DNA from: Actinospica acidithermotolerans
Lineage (GTDB): Bacteria; Actinomycetota; Actinomycetes; Streptomycetales; Catenulisporaceae
Assembly: GCF_018139625.1 (NCBI RefSeq)
Contig: NZ_JAGSOH010000025.1
Location: forward strand, 1 to 64,000
DNA: 64,000 nt
Direction of reading: 5' to 3'
Shown one piece after another: positions 14 to 41,974 of this stretch. The notes beneath the pieces were generated by a model. It was not told the origin of the DNA. It saw nothing but the letters and a program-made list of their open reading frames with translations, and made no database searches. Every line of letters starts with the position of its first letter. Position 1 is the first letter of the stretch. The translations under genes and the position numbers were made by a program.

Positions 14-114
14 GGGTGGTGGGCACCGATGACCGCTGTCGGGGTTGCCAGCAGGATTGATGGTGGCCCGCTACCGTCTGGTCGCCGGTCAGAGACGACC
101 GGGTGGAGTTGGGC

Positions 115-2061
115 ATGCTGCGATCCGCGCCGAACGCTGTGGGGTTTTCGCCGCCGTCGCTGCCGTCGCCGTCGCCGTCGCCGTCAACGACGACCACGAC
201 ATCGACATCGACATCGACATCGACATCGACGACGCTGCGCTTCCGCGTGCTGGGGCCGCTCCGGGGCTGGGTGGGTGGGCGCGAGGTGGCGCTCGGGCCG
301 CTGAAGCAGCGGCTGGTGCTCGCGATGCTGCTGTGCCGCAGCGGCAGCGCGGTCTCGGTCGAAGCGCTGACCGAGGCGGTTTGGGGGCAGCAGCCGCCGC
401 GGACGGCGCGCAAGAACCTGCAGGCGTATGTCCTCGGGATCCGCCGGATTCTGCAGGAGGCCGGGGCCGGGGAACGGCTGCTGCTGCGGTCCGGCGGCTA
501 TCAGCTGCTCGTGTCCGAGGACGAGCTGGACCTCTTGCGATTGTCGGCGCTGGCCCGGGCCGGGCGCGAGGCGGCCGATCGCGGGGCCGTCGAGCGGGCG
601 GCGCGGATCCTGGGTCGGGCGCGGCGGTTGTGGGACGGACCGCCGTTGGGCGAGCTGGCCGCCTCGGATTCCGTTCGGGCGGAGGCCGAACGGCTCGACG
701 TGCGTTACACGGCCTTATGCGAGGACTGGGCCGACGTCGCGCTGGAGGCGGGCCTGGCCGACGAGGTCGCCGAGGCGGCCGGCGAGCTGCTCGGGCGGCA
801 TCCGCTGCGGGAGCGGTTGCAGGTCGCCCGGATGACGGCGCTGTACCGCTCGGGGCGCCGCGCCGAAGCGCTCGCCGAGTACGACGAGGCACGCAAGCTC
901 CTGGCCCGCGAGTTGGGCCTTTCACCTAGCCCGGTGGCGGAATCGGTCTACCGCGCCATCCTGGCGGATGAGGGCGGAGACACCCGGGTGCGTGTTCGGC
1001 GCCTGGCGTCGGCCGTGGATCTGCCGCCGCAGAACGCCGGCTTCGTCGGGCGGACGGCTGCTCTGGCCGAGCTGACGGAGGTCGCGGCGGTCGATGGCGG
1101 CACGTGCCTGCTGGTGGGAGAGGCCGGTGTCGGAAAGACCGCCCTCGCGTTGCGCGCTGCCCATGGGCTGGATCGCGCGTTCCCGGACGGACGGATCTTC
1201 GTTCGGCTCCGAGAACCCGACGGCTCCCCCAGGCCCCTGATGCCGGTCGTCGCGGAACTTCTGTCGTACACGGGCAGGCCCGAGCCGGCCTCGGTCAATC
1301 CCGAGCGGGAAGCGGCTCGATGGCGCCTGTGGGCTGCCACCCGCCGCATTCTGCTCGTCCTCGACGACGCTTCCGACGAGGAGACCGTGCGCACGCTGCT
1401 GCCGGGCGGTCGCAGTTCGGCCATCGTCACCGCGTGCAGCCAACTGGCGGGGCTCACGCCGACCTGCCGGATGCAGCTTGCACCGCTGTCCGCCGACAAA
1501 GCACTCGCCCTGCTTGCCGGAGTCGCGGGTTCCAGCCGGGTGCGGTCCGACCCCGCCGCGGCCGAACGCCTCGTCGTCCTGTGCGGAATGCTCCCGCTGA
1601 CGATCCGCGCCGCAGCGCTCAAGCTCGCCGTGCTCCCGCACCTCGAGCTGGTTGAGTACGCAGCACGCCTCTCGTCCCCCGAGACGGCGTTGGATCACCT
1701 GGAAGTCGGCGACGTCCGGGTGCGCGCTCGCGCAGCCCGCGAGTGGTGCTGCCTGCGCCCGTCGCACCGGGCGATTGTGCGAGATCTGGCGGAAACGGTG
1801 CCCCCGACGGTGCCCCCGACGCGCTTCACCCTCCGCGATGTCACGGCGGTCGCGGGCGTTGCACCGGACCGAGCCTGCGTCGAGCTCGAATCGATGCTTG
1901 AGGAGGGCGCCCTGATCTCGCCCGACGGCGCAACGTATTCGCTGCCTTACATCACCTATCTCTACGCCCGCGAGCTGGCCGCCCGTTCGAAGGCGGCGCC
2001 TGTCCCGGCCTGGTCCGCGCGCACCGTCCACGCAGGAGGCCCCCTTGTTCGACGTCCTTGA
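115..2061 (+). CDS. AfsR-like SARP regulator (BTAD + NB-ARC ATPase)
   Basis: Predicted pathway-specific transcriptional activator of 648 aa. After a low-complexity Pro/Ser/Thr stretch (about residues 17-40) comes a winged-helix DNA-binding domain (LGPLRGWVGG ... QPPRTARKNLQAYVLGIRR) and a bacterial transcriptional activation domain ending near LGLSPSP. An NB-ARC-type NTPase follows, with the P-loop GEAGVGKT and a Walker B-like LLVLDDAS. No long TPR tail is present, so it is shorter than classical AfsR. ATG 115 is preferred because GGAG lies 6 nt upstream; GTG 103 is an alternative. The 3' end overlaps the LanKC start by 17 nt, so the two are co-transcribed and probably coupled. It is the likely activator of the lanthipeptide unit and possibly of the NRPS operon (inference). 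Confidence 0.85.
   Translation: MLRSAPNAVGFSPPSLPSPSPSPSTTTTTSTSTSTSTSTTLRFRVLGPLRGWVGGREVALGPLKQRLVLAMLLCRSGSAVSVEALTEAVWGQQPPRTARKNLQAYVLGIRRILQEAGAGERLLLRSGGYQLLVSEDELDLLRLSALARAGREAADRGAVERAARILGRARRLWDGPPLGELAASDSVRAEAERLDVRYTALCEDWADVALEAGLADEVAEAAGELLGRHPLRERLQVARMTALYRSGRRAEALAEYDEARKLLARELGLSPSPVAESVYRAILADEGGDTRVRVRRLASAVDLPPQNAGFVGRTAALAELTEVAAVDGGTCLLVGEAGVGKTALALRAAHGLDRAFPDGRIFVRLREPDGSPRPLMPVVAELLSYTGRPEPASVNPEREAARWRLWAATRRILLVLDDASDEETVRTLLPGGRSSAIVTACSQLAGLTPTCRMQLAPLSADKALALLAGVAGSSRVRSDPAAAERLVVLCGMLPLTIRAAALKLAVLPHLELVEYAARLSSPETALDHLEVGDVRVRARAAREWCCLRPSHRAIVRDLAETVPPTVPPTRFTLRDVTAVAGVAPDRACVELESMLEEGALISPDGATYSLPYITYLYARELAARSKAAPVPAWSARTVHAGGPLVRRP
163..230 (+). repeat. 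Hexanucleotide repeats coding a Pro-Ser/Thr-Ser linker
   Basis: Runs of CGTCGC followed by about 5.5 copies of GACATC (198-230) lie inside the SARP gene. They encode alternating Pro-Ser and then Thr-Ser residues just before the DNA-binding domain. Such short repeats vary easily in length by replication slippage. Confidence 0.7.
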
Positions 2062-4603
2062 AACAGCGCTCGCCGACGGCGAGTACTACGCCCCGTTCTG
2101 CACGGTGCGCGCCCCTGGGCCGCGACTGAGCCCCGGAGCCGTGCCGGAGGGCTGGTGTCGGAGCGATCGCGACATCTGGGCCTTCTGGTCCCGCCCCGGG
2201 CTTCCCGAGGTCGATCAAGGCTGGAAGATCCACGTATCGGCACAGATCAGCCGGATCCAACCGGTGCTCGACACGGTGGCCGAAGCCTGCTTCGCCGCGA
2301 ACGTGCCCTTCAAACACGTCGCCACCCGGCGCTTCTACCTCTTCCTCCACCACAAGCACGCGCCGCGGCCCCAAGCCGGCAAGTTCTGCGCCCTCTACCC
2401 GCCCGACACCGAGACCGCACGGCGCCTGCTCAACCGGCTGGCCGAGGCCCTGGACGGCGAAGAAGGGGCGTACGTTCTCACCGATCGGCGCTATCGAAAC
2501 TCGCGTACGGTCCAGTACAGGTACGGGGCTTTCCGCGGCCGCAGCAGGCTGCTGCCCGACGGAAAGCAGGAGCTGCTGGTCCGGGACGGCGCCGGGCGCG
2601 ACATCGTGGACCTGCGCACGCCGGCGTTCTTACTGCCCCCGGGGATCACCGATCCCTTTGTCGACGAGGAGCCCGCGGCCCATCAGGGTTCGATCGTCAT
2701 GGGGAACTACGAGGTCGTCAGGGTACTGCAGACCAGCAACGCCGGCGGCGCCTATCAGGCGCGTGACGTCCGCAGCGGGAGAGCCGTCTTCCTGAAGGAG
2801 GCCAGGGCCCACAACGGCTACACGCCCGATGGCCTCAGCGCGCAGGAGAGACTGCGCGCCGAGCACGCGACCCTGACCCGCCTGCACCAGGCCGCGCCGG
2901 GGCTGTGCCCGGAGCCGCTGGAGTACTTCAGCGAATGGGAGCACGAATTCCTCGCCACGGAGTTCGTCGCGGGCGTACCACTGCGGACCTGGGTCGGACA
3001 GAACACCCCGCTCATCCGGGCCGACTGGGCGCAGCGTGACTCGGAATCCTACTTCGCCGACTGCCGCCGCATCCTGGCAGGCCTCGACGACACACTCGGT
3101 CGCCTGCACGCCCTCGGATACCGGTTCGGGGATCTCAGTCCGTCGAACGTCATCGTCACGCCGGGCACCGGCGCCCGGCTCGTCGACTTCGAGATGGCCA
3201 CCCCGCTCGACGAGCCCGCCGTGGCCGGTGGGACTCCGGGCTTCGTGCCGTCGGCCGCGCTGCTCGCCGAGGGCTCCGACCCGCTGCTGGCCGACCGTTT
3301 CGCGCTCGGTGCACTGGCCCTGGCCATGTTCGCCAACGCGCACGCCGTCGCCGAGCGCGCGCCGGACAACCTCGCACTGCTCCGGCGGGACCTGACCGCC
3401 GTCACGGCCCCGCCCGCGGATCTCTGGGCCCGCGCCACGGCCTTCTACCCGACCGGCCCGGACCGCGAACCGACCACGCCGACACCTGACGAGGTGGACG
3501 CCGACCCCGTCGGCTGCCTGGCCCGGCTCGCCGACCGGCTGGCGGCGGGGCTGCTCGCGATGGCCGACTGCGACCGGGCGGACTGGGTCTTCCCGCCGCC
3601 GCCGGCCGCCTTCGCCACCAACACGGTGTGCGTCGGGTACGGGACGGCCGGGGTCGTCCACGCTCTGCTGAGCGCCCGGGTCGCGGTTCCGGACGCGGTG
3701 CGCAAACGCCTCCGCCAAGACGGTCTCGACCTGCGCGGGGAACTGCCGCCGGGGCTCGACGTGGGCGTGGCGGGGATTGCGAGGGTACTGGCTCAGCTCG
3801 GCCACCTGGACGAGGCGAACGACCTCGCCCTGCTGGCGGAGAACCACCCGCTCACCGCCTCCTGCGCCACCCTCGCCGGGGGCCGGGCCGGGGTCGGGCT
3901 GATGTGGCTCGACCTGTACCGCCGGACCGGCGACGGGCGCTGCCTCGACCGGGCGGCCGCGGCCGGCGACTTCATCGCAGAGACCGCAGAGCCGCGACCG
4001 TTGCTCGGCCCCCAGGACGCCCGCGGGCTCTTTCACGGCCGCTCCGGGCTCGCCCTCTTCCTGCACCGGCTCTTCGAAGAATCCGGGGAGGTCCGCTACC
4101 TGGCGGCAGGGAGCCGGCTGCTGCACGAGGAACTGGACCGGGCGATGGAGCTGCCGGACGGCGCGTTGTCGTTCCCGGACAACGCCGCGGTCCGCAGAGC
4201 CATGCCGTACTACGCCATCGGCTCGGCGGGTGTCGGAACCGTTCTGACTCGCTACGTCCACACCGATGGCGTGCAGGACGAGCGGTTCGCCGCCGCCCTG
4301 CCGCGCATCGTCGCCGATGCCGACAAGCTGTGCGCCACGGAGTCCGGGCTCTACGCCGGACTGGCCGGGCTGGCCCACTTCCTGACCGATCATGCCGAAC
4401 TGACCGGCCGGTCGACCGACCGCGAGCGCGCCGTCAAGGTCGCGACGGGACTGCTGAAGTACGCGGTCCCGCACGGCGAAGGCGTCCGTTTCCTCGGCAC
4501 CGGCGCACTCCGGTTCAGCGCCGACCTCTCCAGCGGCTCCGCAGGCGTGCTCCTGGCGGTCTGCCGGATCCTCGACGGCCCAGGCGCAGACCTCTTCGCC
4601 TGA
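2045..4603 (+). CDS. lanKC: Class III lanthipeptide synthetase LanKC
   Basis: Trifunctional enzyme of 852 aa that would phosphorylate Ser/Thr, eliminate phosphate to dehydro-residues and cyclise a class III precursor in the cytoplasm. The N-terminal lyase part (about 1-215) has the family motif GWKIHVSA and the AGKFC.LYP segment. The kinase (about 219-480) has FLKEAR, FGDLSPSNVIV and DFEMA. The cyclase (about 490-852) shows the LanC-like Gly repeats GVAGIA, GRAGVG, HGRSGLA, SAGVG, YAGLAGLA and SAGVLLA, but no Cys/His zinc ligands, which separates it from class IV LanL. The start is TTG at 2045, set by AGGAGG 6 nt upstream inside the end of the SARP gene. The precursor gene follows 39 nt downstream. 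Length and domain order are normal for the family. Confidence 0.93.
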   Translation: MFDVLETALADGEYYAPFCTVRAPGPRLSPGAVPEGWCRSDRDIWAFWSRPGLPEVDQGWKIHVSAQISRIQPVLDTVAEACFAANVPFKHVATRRFYLFLHHKHAPRPQAGKFCALYPPDTETARRLLNRLAEALDGEEGAYVLTDRRYRNSRTVQYRYGAFRGRSRLLPDGKQELLVRDGAGRDIVDLRTPAFLLPPGITDPFVDEEPAAHQGSIVMGNYEVVRVLQTSNAGGAYQARDVRSGRAVFLKEARAHNGYTPDGLSAQERLRAEHATLTRLHQAAPGLCPEPLEYFSEWEHEFLATEFVAGVPLRTWVGQNTPLIRADWAQRDSESYFADCRRILAGLDDTLGRLHALGYRFGDLSPSNVIVTPGTGARLVDFEMATPLDEPAVAGGTPGFVPSAALLAEGSDPLLADRFALGALALAMFANAHAVAERAPDNLALLRRDLTAVTAPPADLWARATAFYPTGPDREPTTPTPDEVDADPVGCLARLADRLAAGLLAMADCDRADWVFPPPPAAFATNTVCVGYGTAGVVHALLSARVAVPDAVRKRLRQDGLDLRGELPPGLDVGVAGIARVLAQLGHLDEANDLALLAENHPLTASCATLAGGRAGVGLMWLDLYRRTGDGRCLDRAAAAGDFIAETAEPRPLLGPQDARGLFHGRSGLALFLHRLFEESGEVRYLAAGSRLLHEELDRAMELPDGALSFPDNAAVRRAMPYYAIGSAGVGTVLTRYVHTDGVQDERFAAALPRIVADADKLCATESGLYAGLAGLAHFLTDHAELTGRSTDRERAVKVATGLLKYAVPHGEGVRFLGTGALRFSADLSSGSAGVLLAVCRILDGPGADLFA

Positions 4604-4642: not shown

Positions 4643-4750
4643 ATGAACCAGATTCTCGCACTTCAGGAGCTCTCGGTTGACGACGGAGACGAGGTCGTCT
4701 GGTGCCCCAGCGCCTATAGCAGCATCCTGCGCACCACCTACGCGCTGTAG
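4643..4750 (+). CDS. Class III lanthipeptide precursor peptide 1
   Basis: A 35-aa peptide immediately downstream of lanKC. The leader begins MNQILALQEL, the conserved I/L-L-x-LQ recognition motif of class III precursors, followed by an acidic SVDDGDE stretch. The putative core is VVWCPSAYSSILRTTYAL, with one Cys (C21), three Ser and two Thr. AAAGG sits 12-13 nt before the ATG. The only Cys precedes all Ser/Thr, unlike the Ser-x2-Ser-x(n)-Cys motif that makes labionin or lanthionine rings in this class, so ring topology cannot be inferred from known members. It is paralogous to the peptide at 33280-33384: C21, S23, Y25, S27, L29 and T32 align without gaps. A strong hairpin follows. Confidence 0.88.
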   Translation: MNQILALQELSVDDGDEVVWCPSAYSSILRTTYAL

Positions 4751-32213: not shown

Positions 32214-33116
32214 TCAACACCGCTTGAGCACGGTGACCGTATCCACCCACCAGCCCGCGCGCTGGAGATTGTCGAGCAGTGCCTGCGGACGAACACCGCG
32301 GAGCGCGGCGACGGTCGCGGCCAGCGAACGCACGCCTTCTTGAGCGACCAGATGCTCGATCCGGGCGGTGAGCAGACGTGACCAGCCGTGCCCCTTCTGC
32401 CGGGCGTCCGGGACCAGGACGTCGACGATCATCGCCTCGCTTTCGGCGCCACGCTCCGCGGGCGTCATCGACACCAGGGCGTGCGCCACGAGTTCGCGTT
32501 CGTACTCGATGACGTAGGACCTCAAGACCTCGCCATCGATGCCGTCCAGCCACGCTTCGGTGTATTCGGCGATTCGGCCGTCCTCGGCCTCGCCGACCGG
32601 CTCGGTCGCCAGTCCTTGGCCGATCGAGGCCCGGATGCACCCGAGCGCGAATGCGAACTCTGCTTCGTTGTCTCGGTCGAGCATCCGGAAGACGGCGCCG
32701 GGAGGCAGTTCGGCCGGCGAGTGCGTCTGCTGCGTGACGAGTTTGCGTACGACGAGGTTGTGCTCCTCGAACCCCGCCTGCGCGAGAAGCCCGCCGAGTA
32801 CACCCGCCTGCTCGTGCGCCGAGATGTCGGCTCGCAGCTGGGTGATCTCGTCCGGCAGGTCCGCGCACGCTGCTTCCACCAGCGCGCGCAGGGCTTGCGC
32901 GTTCTCGGATTCAGGCGGTGATCCGTGCAACGCGGCTAGCAGACGGCCGCGCTGGTCGGTGATGGGATGGCTGCTGTCCTGCCACAGGATCGCCTCGGTG
33001 ACGACGCCGTTTCCATCCAGCGCAACCAGGCCGGAGTCGTAGTCGAGCAGATCCTCCTCTGCGGCCAGATCGCGGAGCGCACTGCTGTGCCCTGGACCGA
33101 CTGTGCGGAAGTGCAT
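32214..33116 (-). CDS. GNAT-family N-acyltransferase
   Basis: A 300-aa protein. The C-terminal half has a GNAT fold: MIVDVLVPDARQKGHGWSRLL contains the (Q/R)-x-x-G-x-G/A acyl-CoA pyrophosphate loop, preceded by a beta strand with LVAHALVSM. The N-terminal half is a divergent, GNAT-like extension. ATG follows AAGGAGGAATCCC. It lies just downstream of the 17-aa peptide, the second class III precursor and a strong hairpin. GNAT enzymes acylate RiPPs in the goadvionin and selidamide pathways, so acylation of one of these peptides, perhaps with an ACP- or PCP-bound chain, is plausible. Simple N-acetylation for self-resistance is the alternative. Function not proven. Confidence 0.8.
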   Translation of the reverse strand: MHFRTVGPGHSSALRDLAAEEDLLDYDSGLVALDGNGVVTEAILWQDSSHPITDQRGRLLAALHGSPPESENAQALRALVEAACADLPDEITQLRADISAHEQAGVLGGLLAQAGFEEHNLVVRKLVTQQTHSPAELPPGAVFRMLDRDNEAEFAFALGCIRASIGQGLATEPVGEAEDGRIAEYTEAWLDGIDGEVLRSYVIEYERELVAHALVSMTPAERGAESEAMIVDVLVPDARQKGHGWSRLLTARIEHLVAQEGVRSLAATVAALRGVRPQALLDNLQRAGWWVDTVTVLKRC

Positions 33117-33142: not shown

Positions 33143-33194
33143 CACTGCCGGGTGTGTGAACGCGGGAATCCCCACGTTCACACACCCGGCAGTG
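33143..33194 (-). terminator. 20-bp perfect hairpin with U-run after the micropeptide
   Basis: Arms 33143-33162 and 33175-33194 are exact complements (20 bp, starting CACTGCCGGGTGTG), with a 12-nt loop that itself can pair GGG-AAT-CCC. On the - strand the stem is followed by TTTTGCG. This is an intrinsic terminator or attenuator 6 nt after the 17-aa peptide stop. It would let the two short peptides be made in large excess over the GNAT gene. Confidence 0.9.
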
Positions 33195-33199
33195 TCGTG

Positions 33200-33253
33200 T
33201 CAGGCCTTCTTCTTACGGGACGTCGGCCAGGGCAGGATGATGATTTCTCGCAT
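33200..33253 (-). CDS. 17-aa micropeptide, possible RiPP precursor
   Basis: A tiny frame encoding MREIIILPWPTSRKKKA. AAGGAG lies 8-9 nt before the ATG, the frame sits between precursor 2 and a strong terminator, and there is no other gene in the gap. Ile-rich start, Pro-Trp-Pro centre and Lys-rich tail are seen directly. I do not recognise a family. It could be a minimal RiPP precursor, for example for Lys or N-terminal acylation by the adjacent GNAT, a leader peptide controlling the following hairpin, or a translational artefact. The Shine-Dalgarno and isolation argue for translation. Confidence 0.6.
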   Translation of the reverse strand: MREIIILPWPTSRKKKA

Positions 33254-33279: not shown

Positions 33280-33384
33280 TTACAGCGCCGTGCCGGTCAG
33301 CGAACTGGCGTAGATGCTGAAGCAGGGGAAGGGGTGGGGTTCCAGGTCGGCCTCGAGCTGCTGGAGAGCGAGAATCTGAGACAT
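33280..33384 (-). CDS. Class III lanthipeptide precursor peptide 2
   Basis: A 34-aa peptide starting MSQILALQQL, the class III leader motif, then acidic EADLE and a putative core HPFPCFSIYASSLTGTAL. It is clearly paralogous to the peptide at 4643-4750: the same I-L-A-L-Q leader and an ungapped match of C21, S23, Y25, S27, L29 and T32, both ending in A-L. The 5' leaders also match (GAAAGG, then 12 nt ending CGACG, then ATG). No LanKC is adjacent here, so the one 28 kb away is the likely enzyme. As in peptide 1, the only Cys lies before all Ser/Thr. It is transcribed with the micropeptide, and a palindrome lies 58 nt upstream. Confidence 0.87.
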   Translation of the reverse strand: MSQILALQQLEADLEPHPFPCFSIYASSLTGTAL

Positions 33385-33441: not shown

Positions 33442-33462
33442 GAACCGGTTGATTAACGGTTC
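33442..33462. promoter_or_regulatory. Palindrome upstream of precursor 2
   Basis: GAACCG - 9 nt - CGGTTC, perfect 6-bp arms in an AT-richer stretch between the LuxR-family gene stop and precursor 2. Position and symmetry fit a dimeric regulator site; the adjacent LuxR-family regulator is a candidate binder (inference). Confidence 0.45.
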
Positions 33463-33482: not shown

Positions 33483-36386
33483 TCAGGAGGGGCCGAGTTC
33501 GGCGGCGACCTCGCGCAGGCTCTCCCGGTCCGGCCGCCCGATCTTCGCCAGCAGATTCGCCACATGCTTCTCCACGGTGCGCGGCGAGATGGACAGCCGC
33601 CGGGCGATGTCCTGGTTGCCGAGTCGCTCGGCGATCAGGCCGAGAACCTCGTATTCGCGCACGGTGACGCTCAGCGCCCGCAGTTGCGCCGGTATCTGCT
33701 CGCGCCGGTCGCGGTGCTGGGCGACGCTCGCGCCGGCCTGCCGCAGCAGTGCCCTGCAGGCGCCGGCCACGGGGGCGATCTCGGCGGCGTGGAAGAACTC
33801 CTCGGCGGTGCGCAGCCACCCGATCGGATCGCCCCACCCGTCCTCGAGAGCGGCCGGGGCGACCAGGCGCAGACCGAGGTGACGCGGCGTCGGAAAGATC
33901 TCGGCGTCCTGCTGGGCCCGGGCGAGCGCCGCCTGCGCCTGCTCCGGCCGGCCCTCGCGGCCCAGCAGCACCGCGTCGGCCAACTGCAGGAACTGGCGGT
34001 TCCAGCGCAGCGCGGCCGCCGGGGCGGCGAGCGCCGCCTCGTACTCGGCCCGGCCGGCGCGGCCGGCCAGGATCTCCAGCAGCGGCCGCAGGCCGCAGCG
34101 GCCGGTCAGGTAGAACAGGTTCGGGTGCCGGTCCTCCCAGTCCAGGGCCGCGTTCAGCTCCGCGCTCGCCTGGTCGCGGTCCTCCTCCAGCAGCGCGCAC
34201 ATCGCGCGGCACAGGCCGTGCACGTTCGGCATCAGCGGCGAGTTCTCGCCGCCCGCCCGGCGGAAGGTCTGCAGGTCCCGTTCCATCTCCCGCCGGCTGC
34301 CCCGGTGCGCCCCGAGGATCGCGGACACCAGCAGCAGATACCGGTGCGCGGAGAGGTTGCGCAGCCGCACCGTCGCTTCGAGGCTGCGGCCGATGATCTC
34401 CCGCGCCGCCTCCTGCTCGCCCCGCAGTGCCGCGTTCATCGCCAGCAGGCAGTCAGCGGTCTGCATCGGAATGATGGCGCTCAGTTCGCAGGCCGCGCGC
34501 CACGCCTCGTCGAGCCCCGTGGTGCCCCCGGTGCGCATCCACGCGTCCCCGCCGAGGCTCAGCAGGGCCTCCACCCGCCACTTCGGCAGCGCGTGCGCCT
34601 CGGCGACCGCCAGCATCCGGTTCAGGCAGTCATCGGCCTCCACGAAGCCCCGGGCCCGGGCGAGCAGCGCTAGCAGCTGCCAGGCCTGGCAGGCGACCTC
34701 AGGCAGCGGAACCGCCTCGGCGATCCGGACAGCCGCGCGGGCGAGGCGCTCGGCGTCCTCGGCGCCGCCGCGCTGCCCGGGGAACAGCGCGAGATATCCC
34801 TCGGCGATGGCGAGCGCGGCGTTCTGCTCCGGGCGGCCGCCGTCGCCCAGCAGTTCGCGGGCCGCGGCGAGCTGCGTGACGATCTCGGCCGGCCGCTCCG
34901 CGTCCACGGCGGTCCAGGCCAGCCGGGTGCGCAGCGCCACCAGCCGATCGGTGCCGAGGGCCGCGGCCGCGGCGGGCGGCAGCGTGTCGAGAAGCGCGAG
35001 GGCGCGGTCCAGCTCACCGGCGTCCGCGAGGGCGTGGACGAGCGCCTCGACGACCGCGGGCCGGTCGGTCTCGGCGGCGAGCGCGTGCGCGCGTTCGAGC
35101 AGGGCCACGGCCGAGGCGGCGCCCGCGGCGGTGGCGCGGCGTCCGGCCTCGGCGTACAGCAGGGCCGCGCCCGCCGTGTCGTCGGCCGCCAGCAGCAGCG
35201 CGGCGACCTGCTGGCACCGCTCGTCGGACAGCTCCGGATCGGCCCGGCGCACCGCGGCCGCGGCACCGCGCGCGACCACGGCGCGCTCGGCCGGCGGGGT
35301 CGCGGCGACCAGCGCCTCGGCGGTCAGCGCGTGCCGGAAGACGTACTGGTCGGGATTGGCGCCGTCGGGCCGGATGAAATCGGCCTCGGCGGCGGCCCGC
35401 AGGCAGGCGAACAGGCCGCGGTCCTCGTGGCCGGTGGCGAACTGCACGGTGGTCACCGAGAAGCGGGGCCCGAGCAGGGCGGCGACCAGCAGCAGGTCGT
35501 GCACCGGCGGGTCGAGCCGGACGAGGCGCTGCCGGTGGCTCTCCAGCACCGAAGCCGGGATCTTCGCGTCCAGATTGTCCGCGATCCGCCACCGGCCGCC
35601 GACCTGCTCGAGCGCGCCGGTGCCGACCATGTCGCTGAGCAGTTCCTCGATCAGGTAGGGGTTGCCGTCGACGCCGCCGACGAGCCGGGCCAGGACCGCC
35701 TGCGGCACGTCGCCCTTCTTGACGTCCAGACAGGCGGCCGCCATGCCGTGGACCTCCTCCGCGTCGAGCGGCCGCAGCGGCGCGAGTTCGGCCGCGCGGC
35801 GGCGCTCGGCGGCACGCGCCAGCTCGAGCGCGGGGCCGGGCCTCGGGCGCAGCGTGCCGACGAGCGCGATCGGCAGGTCCGCGAGATTGTCGACGAGGTA
35901 GTCGACCACGGTCAGCGTCTCCGGGTCCGCGTCGTGCAGATCCTCGAGTACCAGGACGCAGCCGGCGTCCCGGCCGAGGACGGCCAGCAGCCGCAGCAGG
36001 GCTTCGGCGAGTTCGACGAGCGTTCCGGGGTAGGCCGCGCCGCCGCTCTGCGGGCGCCACTCGGGGACCAGCCGGGCCAGCGTGGGCCGGTACGGCTCGA
36101 GTTCGTGGTCGACGAGCGGGCCGTGCACCCGGAAGCGCGAGGCCAGCGCCTCGACGAGCGGTCGCAGGGGGCTGACCGCGCCGGTGGGGCTGCCGCGGCC
36201 GCGCAGCAGCGGCACGCCGCCGGCCAGGGCCCGCGCGCCGACCTCGCCGGCCAGGCGCGACTTGCCGATTCCGGCCTCGCCCAGCAGGAACACCGCGCTG
36301 CCGCGGGCCGGCAGCGCGTCGAGCGCGCCGGCGAGCAGGCCCAGCTCGGGATCGCGCCCGACGATGATCGGCGATGAGGTGCGCAC
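33483..36386 (-). CDS. LuxR-family ATP-binding (LAL) transcriptional regulator
   Basis: A 967-aa large ATP-binding LuxR-family regulator. The N-terminal ATPase has the P-loop LLGEAGIGKSRLAG and Walker B CVLVLEDLHD. A long Ala-rich alpha-helical (TPR-like) middle follows, and a C-terminal LuxR helix-turn-helix carries SVTVREYEVLGLIAERLGN and ISPRTVEKHVANLLAKIG. GTG 36386 is preferred because GAGGGGG lies 7 nt upstream; GTG 36413 is the alternative. LAL regulators typically activate polyketide or NRPS clusters. It lies between the LanM unit and the precursor 2 unit, and its own promoter probably follows the hairpin at 36498-36539. Confidence 0.92.
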   Translation of the reverse strand: MRTSSPIIVGRDPELGLLAGALDALPARGSAVFLLGEAGIGKSRLAGEVGARALAGGVPLLRGRGSPTGAVSPLRPLVEALASRFRVHGPLVDHELEPYRPTLARLVPEWRPQSGGAAYPGTLVELAEALLRLLAVLGRDAGCVLVLEDLHDADPETLTVVDYLVDNLADLPIALVGTLRPRPGPALELARAAERRRAAELAPLRPLDAEEVHGMAAACLDVKKGDVPQAVLARLVGGVDGNPYLIEELLSDMVGTGALEQVGGRWRIADNLDAKIPASVLESHRQRLVRLDPPVHDLLLVAALLGPRFSVTTVQFATGHEDRGLFACLRAAAEADFIRPDGANPDQYVFRHALTAEALVAATPPAERAVVARGAAAAVRRADPELSDERCQQVAALLLAADDTAGAALLYAEAGRRATAAGAASAVALLERAHALAAETDRPAVVEALVHALADAGELDRALALLDTLPPAAAAALGTDRLVALRTRLAWTAVDAERPAEIVTQLAAARELLGDGGRPEQNAALAIAEGYLALFPGQRGGAEDAERLARAAVRIAEAVPLPEVACQAWQLLALLARARGFVEADDCLNRMLAVAEAHALPKWRVEALLSLGGDAWMRTGGTTGLDEAWRAACELSAIIPMQTADCLLAMNAALRGEQEAAREIIGRSLEATVRLRNLSAHRYLLLVSAILGAHRGSRREMERDLQTFRRAGGENSPLMPNVHGLCRAMCALLEEDRDQASAELNAALDWEDRHPNLFYLTGRCGLRPLLEILAGRAGRAEYEAALAAPAAALRWNRQFLQLADAVLLGREGRPEQAQAALARAQQDAEIFPTPRHLGLRLVAPAALEDGWGDPIGWLRTAEEFFHAAEIAPVAGACRALLRQAGASVAQHRDRREQIPAQLRALSVTVREYEVLGLIAERLGNQDIARRLSISPRTVEKHVANLLAKIGRPDRESLREVAAELGPS

Positions 36387-36497
36387 GCAGGTTCCCCCTC
36401 GGCCGTGGCTCACGGTGAATGGACGGTCACGAACCTACCGGCTCGGACGTCCAGTACGGGAGTGGCCTTTCAGCGAACAGTGGGAATTTCGCGCGTG

Positions 36498-36554: not shown

Positions 36555-36785
36555 TCAGGCGGACTGCAGGCCCGCGGTGACCGTCGTGATGGTGGGGATG
36601 ACGGTGTCCTCGTTGCGGCCGCGCTCGGGGCCGGCCAGCAGCTCGGCCCGGCGGCCCAGGCGCCGGGGAGCGCTCAGCCGGATCTGCCCCGCCGGGTGGC
36701 CGGCCGGGCCGCCGCGACCCGCGCCGGGCGCCTTCCACGCCTTCACCGTCTCGTCGGCGTCAACATCGATGTCTGTCAGGTTCAT
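36555..36785 (-). CDS. Cys-free Thr-rich peptide paired with LanM
   Basis: A 76-aa peptide starting 17 nt after the lanM stop, with GGAGGAG 6 nt before the ATG. The N-terminal part is acidic (MNLTDIDVDADETVKAW), the middle is Gly/Arg/Pro-rich, and the C-terminus is NEDTVIPTITTVTAGLQSA with five Thr and one Ser. There is no Cys anywhere, so LanM-type lanthionine formation within this peptide is impossible; dehydration alone, or addition of another nucleophile, would be possible. Proximity to lanM makes it the presumed substrate, but a typical class II leader (ELxxV, GG cleavage site) is not evident. It could also be an accessory or regulatory peptide. Confidence 0.72.
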   Translation of the reverse strand: MNLTDIDVDADETVKAWKAPGAGRGGPAGHPAGQIRLSAPRRLGRRAELLAGPERGRNEDTVIPTITTVTAGLQSA

Positions 36786-36802: not shown

Positions 36803-39800
36803 TCACCGGGTATACGACGCCTGCGAAGGGCGCCGGATGGGAATCGGCGGCTCCACGAGGAGCGCCGAGGGTATGCGGTCGGGAAAGCCGATGCGCAGCA
36901 GGCCGTGGCCGATTCCGGCCAGGCCGGCGAGCAGGCCGGGGGTGGGCATGCCCGCGGGCGTCCCGCAGCGCGGCGGCCGCACGGCCAGGGCCTCGGCCAG
37001 CGCCGCCGCCCGCTCGGCGGCCGCGGCGCGCAGTTCGGGGTCGGCGGCGCGGCTGAGCGCATGCACCGCGCCCAGTTCCCCGTGGCACAGGCTGTCGTCG
37101 GGCAGCGGGCCGGCCAGCGCGAGAGCCCGCAGCGCGGCCGCCGCCTGCGCGGCGAGCCCCGACCCATCTGCGGCGGCGAGCGCCGACGCGTACCCGGCCA
37201 GGCCCTCGCACCACGAGGAGTCCGAGCCGGCGGCGTCCGCGGCGCGCAGCATGGCGGACGCCGCGTTCTGCACGGCCGGATCCCCGGCCGCCGCGGCGAA
37301 TTTCGACAGTGCCCAGCCGACGCCCGCCGCGCCGCGGATGAAGCCAGGTTCCGCCGGAACCGGTCGGCCGAGCAGGCGCGCGGCGCAGGCCCGCGCCCCG
37401 TCCCACGCCGCGGGCGAGCCGGTGCCCTGATGCACGGCCAGCAGCGCCGCGAGCCCTCCCGCGGTCCCGTCGCCGACCCCGACTTCGTCCTCCGCCTCGG
37501 CCGCCGCGGCGGTGAGCAGCACCGCGCGCTCGACCCAGCCGCCGATCTCAGCGTCCTGCAACGCGGCGGCCACCTGCGCCAGCGCGTAGGCGATGCCGCC
37601 CAGGCCGGCGAAGGCGCCGGAGCCGACGACGGCGAGGTCCTCGGGCTGCCCGGCGAGGGCTTCGAGGACGGAGGGCACCGGGGCCAGCGCCAGCCGGGCG
37701 ATCCGCGCGTAGCGTTCGGAGCCGGTCAGTGCAGCGAGCTGCGCGAGGAACAGCGCCGGACCGCAGCAGCCGTGCGCCAGGTCCGCGCCCATCGCACGCA
37801 CGCGCCAGTGCCCGGCGCCGACCGGTTCGAGCCCGACCCAGTTGGTGCGCTCGCCGTCGCTGAATGCACTGGCGATCAGCTGATCGCCGAGGGCCCGGGC
37901 GGTGGTGAGCAGGGTCTCCGGGTCGGGCGCCGTGGCCGCGGCGATCGCGGCGGCGGCCCGGACGGCGGGCGCGGCCGCGGGCCGGGTGCCGCAGCGCGCG
38001 GCCAGCGACGCGCGGATGACCCACTCCTGATCGTGCCGGTCCGCGACGCCCATCGCCGCGATCTTGTCCTGAACCCGATCGAGGCCCGTTTGCGCCAGTG
38101 CACCCGGAATTCGCGTTCCGGCGGCGCCGCACAGATCCACGGCCCCGGGACACGCGGTGAACAGCGGCACGTCCCCGATCCGCAGATCCGCCTGCTCGCA
38201 GTCTTCCAGCAGCGCGCCGCGCGGACCGCCGAGCGGATTCTCCCGCAGCGACTCGAGGATTCCGTCCCGGTCCGCGGCCGTCCTGAGCACATCAGGGTGC
38301 GTCGACTCCTCGAGCAGCGTCGCGTACACGTGCGTGGCCCGCAGCACGACCCGGACCTCGTCCCGTGCGAAACGGTGCAGCAGGCCGCGCGGCCCGACCA
38401 GTTCGTCGCGCCCGGCGACGACGGTGTCGTAGGCGGCGCGGAAGCCGGCGACGAGCGCCTCGGTGAAGTCGGCCGGTTCGGCCGCGCCGTCGCCGGCGGC
38501 CAGGTACGGCCGGTTGAGCGAGGGCTCGAACGCGTGCGTCCCGCGAATAAGGCGCATCTCGTCCGTGCCCGCGTCCGCCCAGGACACCGAGTCGACCGGC
38601 CAGTGCTGACCCGCGTCGCCGCCGAGGCCGGACAGATCGAGCGCGTTCTCCTCGCCGAGCAGCAGCCGCGGCAGCAGCCCGACGCGGTCCACGGAGGACT
38701 CCAGCGCCCGCCAGGCCGGATCCGGAGCGGTCTGCGCGGCGAGGGAGGGCGCGGGCGGGTGGAAGAGCGTCTCGAGGTCCACCAGGACCGGCTCGTCGCC
38801 GCAGGCGATCACGTTCTCGAAATGCATATCGGTGCCGTCGAGGGCGTACATCAACGCCAGCAGCGCGCCTTGGCGCTCGTAGAAGCGCTCGAATTCGCTT
38901 CTACCTCGGCACGGACGGTGCGGTACGAACTCGGCCCACCCGTACCCGTCTCCTTCGACGACCGCCGCCGCCCGCAGCGCCGGGCCGGCGGTACGCGCGT
39001 TGAACCAGGCGAGGAGGTCGTTGAAATGCCCGTGCGCGGCAAGGGAACGCGGCTTGTAGACGAGCCGGGAGCCGTCGGCGAAGCGCAGCAGTGCGACAGA
39101 CCGGCCGCGCCGGTGCCCGTCCCCGACTGACGTGCGCACCTCGACCAGCGGGCCCGGATCGCGGCCCGAGAACAGCGTGGCGACCAGCGACGGGCGGTCG
39201 GCGGACAACCGGTGCAGCACCTCGGCCAGCGCCTCGGCGGCGTGCAGACCGGCCTGGGCCAGAATCCGGCCCAGCACCGCGTACTCGCCGAGCAGCGAAG
39301 CCAGTCCGTCGTGCGAGGCCGCGTGCCCGACGAAAGCGCGGAACCGATCGGTCGGGCTGTCCCCCGCCAACCGGCCGGTCACCCGGGCGACGTTTAATTC
39401 CAGCACCAGCGTCCGCGCGGCCAGCCGGCCGAGCACCGCCGCGAGCCGCTGCGCGAACTCGTCGAGGATCGCGGTCAGGTCGACCTCGCCGTCCAGCGCG
39501 GCCGCGGCGGCTCGAACGCGTTCGGCGGCCAGGTCGGCGAACGGCGCGAGGATCGCCGCGAAGCCGCTCGTGCCGGGAAGTTCGCCCTCGGGCGGCCGGA
39601 CGGCAACCGGTGCCTTCGCCACGGCGGCCGCGGCGAAGGCGGCCCACTCCGGAGTGCCGGCGGCATCCCGGGCTTCGGCCGGAGACAGGGCGCGCAGCCA
39701 CCAGGCGTGCGTCTCGGCCCGGTCGGACGGGCCGGCGGAGGTCTCGATCACGACGCGGCACCCGGGCGCCACACGCGCATGCCAGTCATCAGTTCGCCTC

Positions 39801-39844
39801 CGGTGTGCCGTCCGCGGAGCCCGACGCGGCTCCGTTCGCTGCAC
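36803..39844 (-). CDS. lanM: Class II lanthipeptide synthetase LanM
   Basis: A 1013-aa bifunctional LanM of normal length. The N-terminal dehydratase domain (about 100-600) contains VALLRFADGSRLVYKPRS, ALDGTDMHFENVIACGDEPVLVDLETLFHP and similar DUF4135 motifs with the kinase-like catalytic Asp, Asn and Asp residues. The C-terminal cyclase (about 690-1010) has LanC Gly repeats and the zinc ligands: Cys in SSWCEGLAG (about 880) and Cys-His in LCHGELGAVHAL (about 921). It ends with the usual GLLAGLAGIGHGLLRIG ... VEPP. So both activities look intact. The start is GTG 39844 with GGCGGAG ahead of it; a later GTG cannot be excluded. It is followed by a Cys-free peptide and preceded by the Ser A domain gene, an odd pairing. 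Confidence 0.92.
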   Translation of the reverse strand: MQRTEPRRAPRTAHRRRTDDWHARVAPGCRVVIETSAGPSDRAETHAWWLRALSPAEARDAAGTPEWAAFAAAAVAKAPVAVRPPEGELPGTSGFAAILAPFADLAAERVRAAAAALDGEVDLTAILDEFAQRLAAVLGRLAARTLVLELNVARVTGRLAGDSPTDRFRAFVGHAASHDGLASLLGEYAVLGRILAQAGLHAAEALAEVLHRLSADRPSLVATLFSGRDPGPLVEVRTSVGDGHRRGRSVALLRFADGSRLVYKPRSLAAHGHFNDLLAWFNARTAGPALRAAAVVEGDGYGWAEFVPHRPCRGRSEFERFYERQGALLALMYALDGTDMHFENVIACGDEPVLVDLETLFHPPAPSLAAQTAPDPAWRALESSVDRVGLLPRLLLGEENALDLSGLGGDAGQHWPVDSVSWADAGTDEMRLIRGTHAFEPSLNRPYLAAGDGAAEPADFTEALVAGFRAAYDTVVAGRDELVGPRGLLHRFARDEVRVVLRATHVYATLLEESTHPDVLRTAADRDGILESLRENPLGGPRGALLEDCEQADLRIGDVPLFTACPGAVDLCGAAGTRIPGALAQTGLDRVQDKIAAMGVADRHDQEWVIRASLAARCGTRPAAAPAVRAAAAIAAATAPDPETLLTTARALGDQLIASAFSDGERTNWVGLEPVGAGHWRVRAMGADLAHGCCGPALFLAQLAALTGSERYARIARLALAPVPSVLEALAGQPEDLAVVGSGAFAGLGGIAYALAQVAAALQDAEIGGWVERAVLLTAAAAEAEDEVGVGDGTAGGLAALLAVHQGTGSPAAWDGARACAARLLGRPVPAEPGFIRGAAGVGWALSKFAAAAGDPAVQNAASAMLRAADAAGSDSSWCEGLAGYASALAAADGSGLAAQAAAALRALALAGPLPDDSLCHGELGAVHALSRAADPELRAAAAERAAALAEALAVRPPRCGTPAGMPTPGLLAGLAGIGHGLLRIGFPDRIPSALLVEPPIPIRRPSQASYTR

Positions 39845-41752: not shown

Positions 41753-41974
41753 ATGCTTACCAATCCGTTCGAGGACGAATCCGCGCACTATCTCGTATTG
41801 GTCAACGAGGAGAATCAGCACTCTCTGTGGCCGGCCTCGATCGACGTACCGGACGGCTGGCGTACGGCGTTCGGGGCGGCCGACCGGGCGAGCTGCCTCG
41901 AGTACGTGGAGACGAACTGGACGGACATCCGCCCCGCGAGCCTGATCGCGGCCATGGCGGGCGACCGGGGCTGA
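41753..41974 (+). CDS. MbtH-like protein
   Basis: A 73-aa MbtH family protein. The signature is complete: NPFEDESAHYLVLVNEENQHSLWP at the N-terminus, then VPDGWRTAFGAADRASCLEYVETNWTDIRP at the C-terminus, with the conserved Trp residues. MbtH proteins bind the N-terminal subdomain of many A domains and are needed for their solubility or activity. It is divergent from the Ser A domain gene, and it may serve the A domains of the whole locus. GAAGGA lies 5 nt before the ATG. A 9-bp-stem hairpin (41996-42023) follows. Confidence 0.97.
   Translation: MLTNPFEDESAHYLVLVNEENQHSLWPASIDVPDGWRTAFGAADRASCLEYVETNWTDIRPASLIAAMAGDRG

Follow-up and report, generated by a model that had tools for sequence, protein, structure and literature searches.

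In the labyrinthopeptin system, which belongs to class III, one LanKC serves several precursors with an LxLQ-type leader. Andalusicin biosynthesis, with several precursors (ThurA1-A7) for one LanKC and a leader of the same type, is likewise similar to the two precursor genes of Actinospica acidithermotolerans considered here, P1 and P2; structures of ThurKC show the leader bound as an amphipathic helix, with the LELQL motif critical, and an enzyme that handles several precursors (PMC10604976). In both described systems the precursors lie in one cluster and carry Ser...Ser...Cys motifs, whereas here one precursor gene stands apart, at a distance of 28.7 kb, and the Cys comes first. Noursin (NorA/NorKC) resembles P2 in combining a class III leader and a LanKC with a short core that has a single Cys (PMC10206099), and the model NF050143 gives a weak match (13.2 bits, cut-off 40). 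It differs in forming a labionin and a His-butyrine link, whereas in the P2 core no Cys follows the Ser/Thr and His is missing from C21 onwards. Prochlorosins (ProcA/ProcM) offer a parallel in class II, in that precursors scattered over the genome are served in trans by one synthetase (PMC10783134), but there a class II enzyme acts on dozens of Nif11-family precursors, whereas the present case is class III with two. A survey of class III clusters predicted a single precursor in 57% of them, so that many have more than one, and found 55% of class III precursors unannotated (PMC7268733). Multi-precursor class III clusters are already known; what is new here is the 28.7-kb split and a core whose only Cys stands ahead of all Ser/Thr.

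The window analysed comprises 64,000 nucleotides (contig NZ_JAGSOH010000025.1, positions 1 to 64,000) and contains the following elements of the class III system:

103-2061, plus strand: SARP/BTAD-NB-ARC regulator, a conserved LanKC neighbour in Actinospica durhamensis C577, Streptomyces sp. MBT53 and others
2045-4603, plus strand: LanKC, class III synthetase (NF038151, 713 bits, cut-off 575), kinase and lyase motifs intact
4643-4750, plus strand: P1, the first precursor, MNQILALQELSVDDGDEVVWCPSAYSSILRTTYAL, 39 bp after the LanKC
33280-33384, minus strand: P2, class III precursor gene of 34 aa, MSQILALQQLEADLEPHPFPCFSIYASSLTGTAL, leader approximately residues 1-20, core from C21
33385-33402, minus strand: ribosome-binding region of P2 by direct reading, GAAAGG and 12 nt, then ATG, laid out as in P1

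The ORF at 33280-33384 exists as originally predicted and reads on the minus strand; the plus strand gives a different frame. Direct reading also bears out two further claims, the gapless coincidence of P1 and P2 at C21, S23, Y25, S27, L29 and T32 and the GAAAGG-12 nt-ATG arrangement common to both genes. Across the wider family, only C21, S23 and S27 of these six positions are invariant, and Y25, L29 and T32 vary. The leader motif is ILALQQL in P2 (residues 4-10, the LxLQ type of class III precursors) and ILALQEL in P1. P2 is a real, well-conserved gene that probably encodes the precursor of a modified peptide, and routine annotation is likely to overlook a gene of 34 residues. We consider it likely, with good though not complete confidence, that P2 functions as a class III precursor gene and that the enzyme modifying its product is encoded at a distance of 28.7 kb, one enzyme giving two products.

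The immediate surroundings of P2 give it the look of a small transcription unit, since a 17-codon ORF, preceded by an AAGGAG of its own, comes next and a very strong terminator closes the stretch:

33145-33192, minus strand: strong intrinsic terminator (20 pairs counted, then TTTT; fold z = -10), closing the unit of P2 and the tiny ORF
33203-33253 (coding bases without stop), minus strand: 17-aa ORF MREIIILPWPTSRKKKA between P2 and the terminator, AAGGAG in front, not conserved
33442-33462, minus strand: perfect inverted repeat GAACCG-TTAATCAAC-CGGTTC upstream of P2, single copy in the window, a possible operator or regulator site
33483-36413, minus strand: LuxR-type (LAL) regulator, upstream of P2 on the same strand

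The DNA pattern of the 17-aa ORF was searched for in 391 further genomes of the order and had no match. Beyond the terminator, 32214-33116 (minus strand) encodes a 300-aa protein whose matches to GNAT acetyltransferases are all sub-threshold and which has no homologue in 98 relatives.

P2 is short, and a strong hairpin precedes the GNAT-like gene, as might be seen if P2 were a chance ORF or the leader peptide of an attenuator. Two genome-wide tests nevertheless rule out a chance ORF. A degenerate DNA pattern for M-x-x-I-L-x-L-Q-x-L matched at two places in the 7.9-Mb genome, P1 and P2, and the reversed control at none. A profile built from 16 precursors of other genomes, with P1 and P2 left out, found P2 at E=1.3e-12 and P1 at E=3.7e-5, followed by the next place at 0.5; only P1 and P2 stand clear of the background, and the values mark P2 as the more typical family member and P1 as divergent. 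When P2 alone served as the query, it retrieved the A. durhamensis precursor MTRILALQQLEADQAEAYPDLFPCFSIYASTITVGY at E=7e-7. Codon by codon, P2 differs from its closest homologue at 7 first, 3 second and 12 third positions, counted over the few codons available (32), and this third-position excess is what constraint on a coding sequence would produce. Because the core residues, like those of the leader, are conserved in other genera, attenuation is rejected as the main role of the peptide. Overall, a chance frame or an attenuator peptide is extremely improbable.

Beyond Actinospica, the P2 family has members in Streptacidiphilus, Kitasatospora and Streptomyces, which came to light when 392 genomes of the order were searched and named genomes scanned. 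A Micromonosporaceae MAG (L127) holds a divergent member; the precursor profile detected no family outside the order in 395 genomes of the class, and P2 was not found in plasmids. The 19 aligned members have M1, L5 A6 L7 Q8, C21, S23 and S27 (P2 numbering) in common. P2 itself carries all the residues (L5 A6 L7 Q8, C21, S23 and S27) by which we define a CFSxxxS precursor family. Its closest homologues are the 'A' precursor of A. durhamensis contig C144, which shares FPCFSIYAS, and the Kitasatospora purpeofusca precursor, in which PFPCFSIYASS is identical; both adjoin LanKCs of one same subfamily. P1 and P2 fall below the cut-offs of NF038154 (lanthi_III_a) and NF038160 (lanthi_III_c), as do nine of the ten relatives tested, the 'B' peptide of locus L105 being the single one to pass NF038154. 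Matches of the family to these models are weak and mostly confined to the leader part. In the open-licence literature we found no description of a Cys-first class III family or of an orphan class III precursor, and a CFSxxxS family of class III precursors with a conserved Cys ahead of its Ser is apparently undescribed.

Assignment to class III, as proposed originally, is supported by the leader and the enzyme, but the canonical order Ser-x2-Ser-x(n)-Cys is missing from the core. The Ser-x2-Ser-x(2-5)-Cys arrangement, frequent though not universal in class III, is absent from P2: its only Cys, C21, stands ahead of every core Ser/Thr, and beyond S23 a Cys occurs in none of the aligned family members. 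Class III precursors are encoded with a LanKC, and so are the homologues of P2, which adjoin LanKCs, with P2 itself 28.7 kb from the LanKC of the window.

Among the loci fetched, those with a confident family precursor all have it next to a LanKC, with P2 as the sole exception. Since relatives always keep the precursor beside the LanKC and P2 lies 28 kb off, one enzyme probably processes two different peptides here. The original prediction had named paired precursors in relatives as a check, and such pairs occur in three relatives of three genera, each around one LanKC: in Streptacidiphilus jeojiense (L104), A. durhamensis contig C144 (L105) and Streptomyces sp. MBT53 (L108), a P2-like 'A' precursor lies closely upstream of the single LanKC and a different 'B' precursor just downstream. 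Two precursors per enzyme are thus an established arrangement, and the original idea that one enzyme makes two products has good support from these pairs and from the catalytically dead appearance of the other LanKC in the genome (see below). The same pairs, and the retention of two precursors in the window, would also be compatible with P1 and P2 forming a two-component product that needs both peptides for activity, as two-peptide lantibiotics do. This proposal, drawn from gene pairing, goes further than our preferred explanation while agreeing with it; most family clusters have a single precursor, so that a partner peptide is not obligatory, and P1 diverges from the 'B' peptides. We therefore regard a two-component product as possible but unlikely.

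The window shares its SARP gene with C577 (63% identity) and with MBT53 but not its NRPS genes, and the conserved unit is therefore the SARP (often), the LanKC and one or two precursors. NRPS and GNAT-like genes of the window are absent beside the LanKCs of relatives. The window breaks up this unit, its A-type precursor standing apart from the LanKC. A move of the A gene, an insertion of DNA or survival of P2 from a former C144-type cluster could each give this layout.

In a tree of LanKCs, the window enzyme is sister to the C577 LanKC of A. durhamensis (100/100), within a 15-member clade (100/100) that also holds the enzymes of the family precursor loci; its wider grouping, with K. purpeofusca and S. 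fildesensis, has weak support (81/89). The original prediction spoke of the only LanKC. This holds within the window but not for the genome (a 422-contig draft assembly with completeness given as 100, in whose gaps a further LanKC might lie), where one more LanKC-like gene, apparently inactive, is found on contig C56 (locus L055, 4291-7341). It belongs to another LanKC clade, has lost the Asp of HRD with the Asn that follows, the Asp of DFG and conserved lyase Lys residues, and contains low-complexity insertions; from these sequence features it is apparently a degenerate or repurposed LanKC. With its kinase and lyase motifs lost and no LxLQ precursor found alongside, C56 was rejected as the cognate enzyme of P2. 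In A. durhamensis C577 (L029, 12660-17947), two different LanKC genes stand in tandem, the first of them related to the C56 type and with a possible precursor of its own, MVENEIVIGVEASASVLDIQGLTPEAPLKSVCVSLLSVIEGTGGGGGK, upstream (L103, 5805-6053).

A second lanthipeptide synthetase, which went unmentioned in the original prediction, lies 3.4 kb from P2 and so far closer than the LanKC:

36555-36785, minus strand: LanM precursor candidate of 76 aa, downstream of the LanM, leader DIDVDADETVKAWK...HPAGQI, Thr-rich core NEDTVIPTITTVTAGLQSA without Cys
36803-39844, minus strand: class II LanM (TIGR03897, 700 bits), Zn-type cyclase motifs present

Its proximity and cyclase motifs, and the position of P2 just upstream of the NRPS-side genes, could suggest that P2 belongs with the LanM or the NRPS operon rather than with a LanKC. 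The LanM is rejected as the cognate enzyme because it is followed by its own precursor candidate, whose leader differs and whose A. durhamensis homologue (60% identity) also follows a LanM-like sequence. P2 does not qualify as a class II precursor, its leader being of class III type, and none of its homologues was seen beside a LanM. The strong terminator separates P2 from the GNAT-like and NRPS genes, which relatives lack next to their LanKCs; affiliation with the LanM or NRPS operon is accordingly highly improbable. The NRPS cluster itself (11353-32296, minus strand) encodes a stand-alone A-T protein, a thioesterase and hydroxylases of the TauD type (clavaminate synthase/VioC-like) and the Asp/Asn type, which suggests beta-hydroxylated residues; an MbtH-like protein is encoded at 41753-41974 (plus strand).

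Loss of the active-site residues in C56, together with the LanM having its own precursor candidate, makes the window LanKC (2045-4603) the likely enzyme for P1 and P2, and modification of P2 by it is likely. Orthology does not prove this pairing, because the nearest homologue of P2 within the genus belongs to the C144 LanKC paralogue and not to C577, the orthologue of the window LanKC. P2 might be a stranded relic of a C144-type cluster that lost its LanKC in this lineage, leaving a precursor intact but unused. The origin of its closest homologue in such a cluster, the lack of any C144 LanKC orthologue found in the genome and the foreign surroundings of P2, with NRPS and LanM genes outside the conserved SARP-LanKC-precursor unit, are consistent with this history. 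P2 has nevertheless retained all family invariants in leader and core, its codon changes are commonest at third positions, its ribosome-binding site and terminator are intact, and the genome still encodes a related, intact LanKC associated with the same type of leader. We consider an unused relic clearly unlikely, and favour a functional P2 modified by the window LanKC.

For the chemistry, the position of C21 ahead of all core Ser/Thr means that the usual Ser-x2-Ser-x(n)-Cys labionin cannot form, and with no Cys after a core Ser, P2 is claimed as a LanKC substrate and not as a labionin peptide. Core residues open to dehydration are S23, S27, S28, T30 and T32. By analogy with ThurKC, ILALQQL of P2 and ILALQEL of P1 would bind the same groove, so that the LanKC at 2045-4603 would recognize the ILALQxL leader shared by both peptides. 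It would then phosphorylate core Ser/Thr and eliminate the phosphate to leave Dha/Dhb in P1 and P2. The Cys21 of P2 would either add to a Dha C-terminal to it or stay free; ring closure by the single Cys may thus proceed onto a Dha on its C-terminal side. Host proteases would remove both leaders, and the two separately transcribed precursors would yield two different products from one enzyme. As to origin, an upstream 'A' precursor of the kind found in A. durhamensis, S. jeojiense and Streptomyces sp. MBT53 was probably separated from its LanKC.

We tentatively suggest, as a possibility on which we place rather low confidence, that this LanKC subfamily builds Cys-first (inverted) crosslinks on CxSxxxS cores and evolved as a two-substrate (A+B) system in which A is movable and may be separately controlled, its neighbours in this window being a LuxR-type regulator, a LanM and an NRPS cluster. 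As labionin or lanthionine of the usual direction is impossible, the product of these LanKCs is a directly testable chemical question. The A+B clusters provide natural two-substrate pairs for the study of leader-guided promiscuity, and genome mining restricted to the neighbourhood of the enzyme can overlook LanKC substrates.
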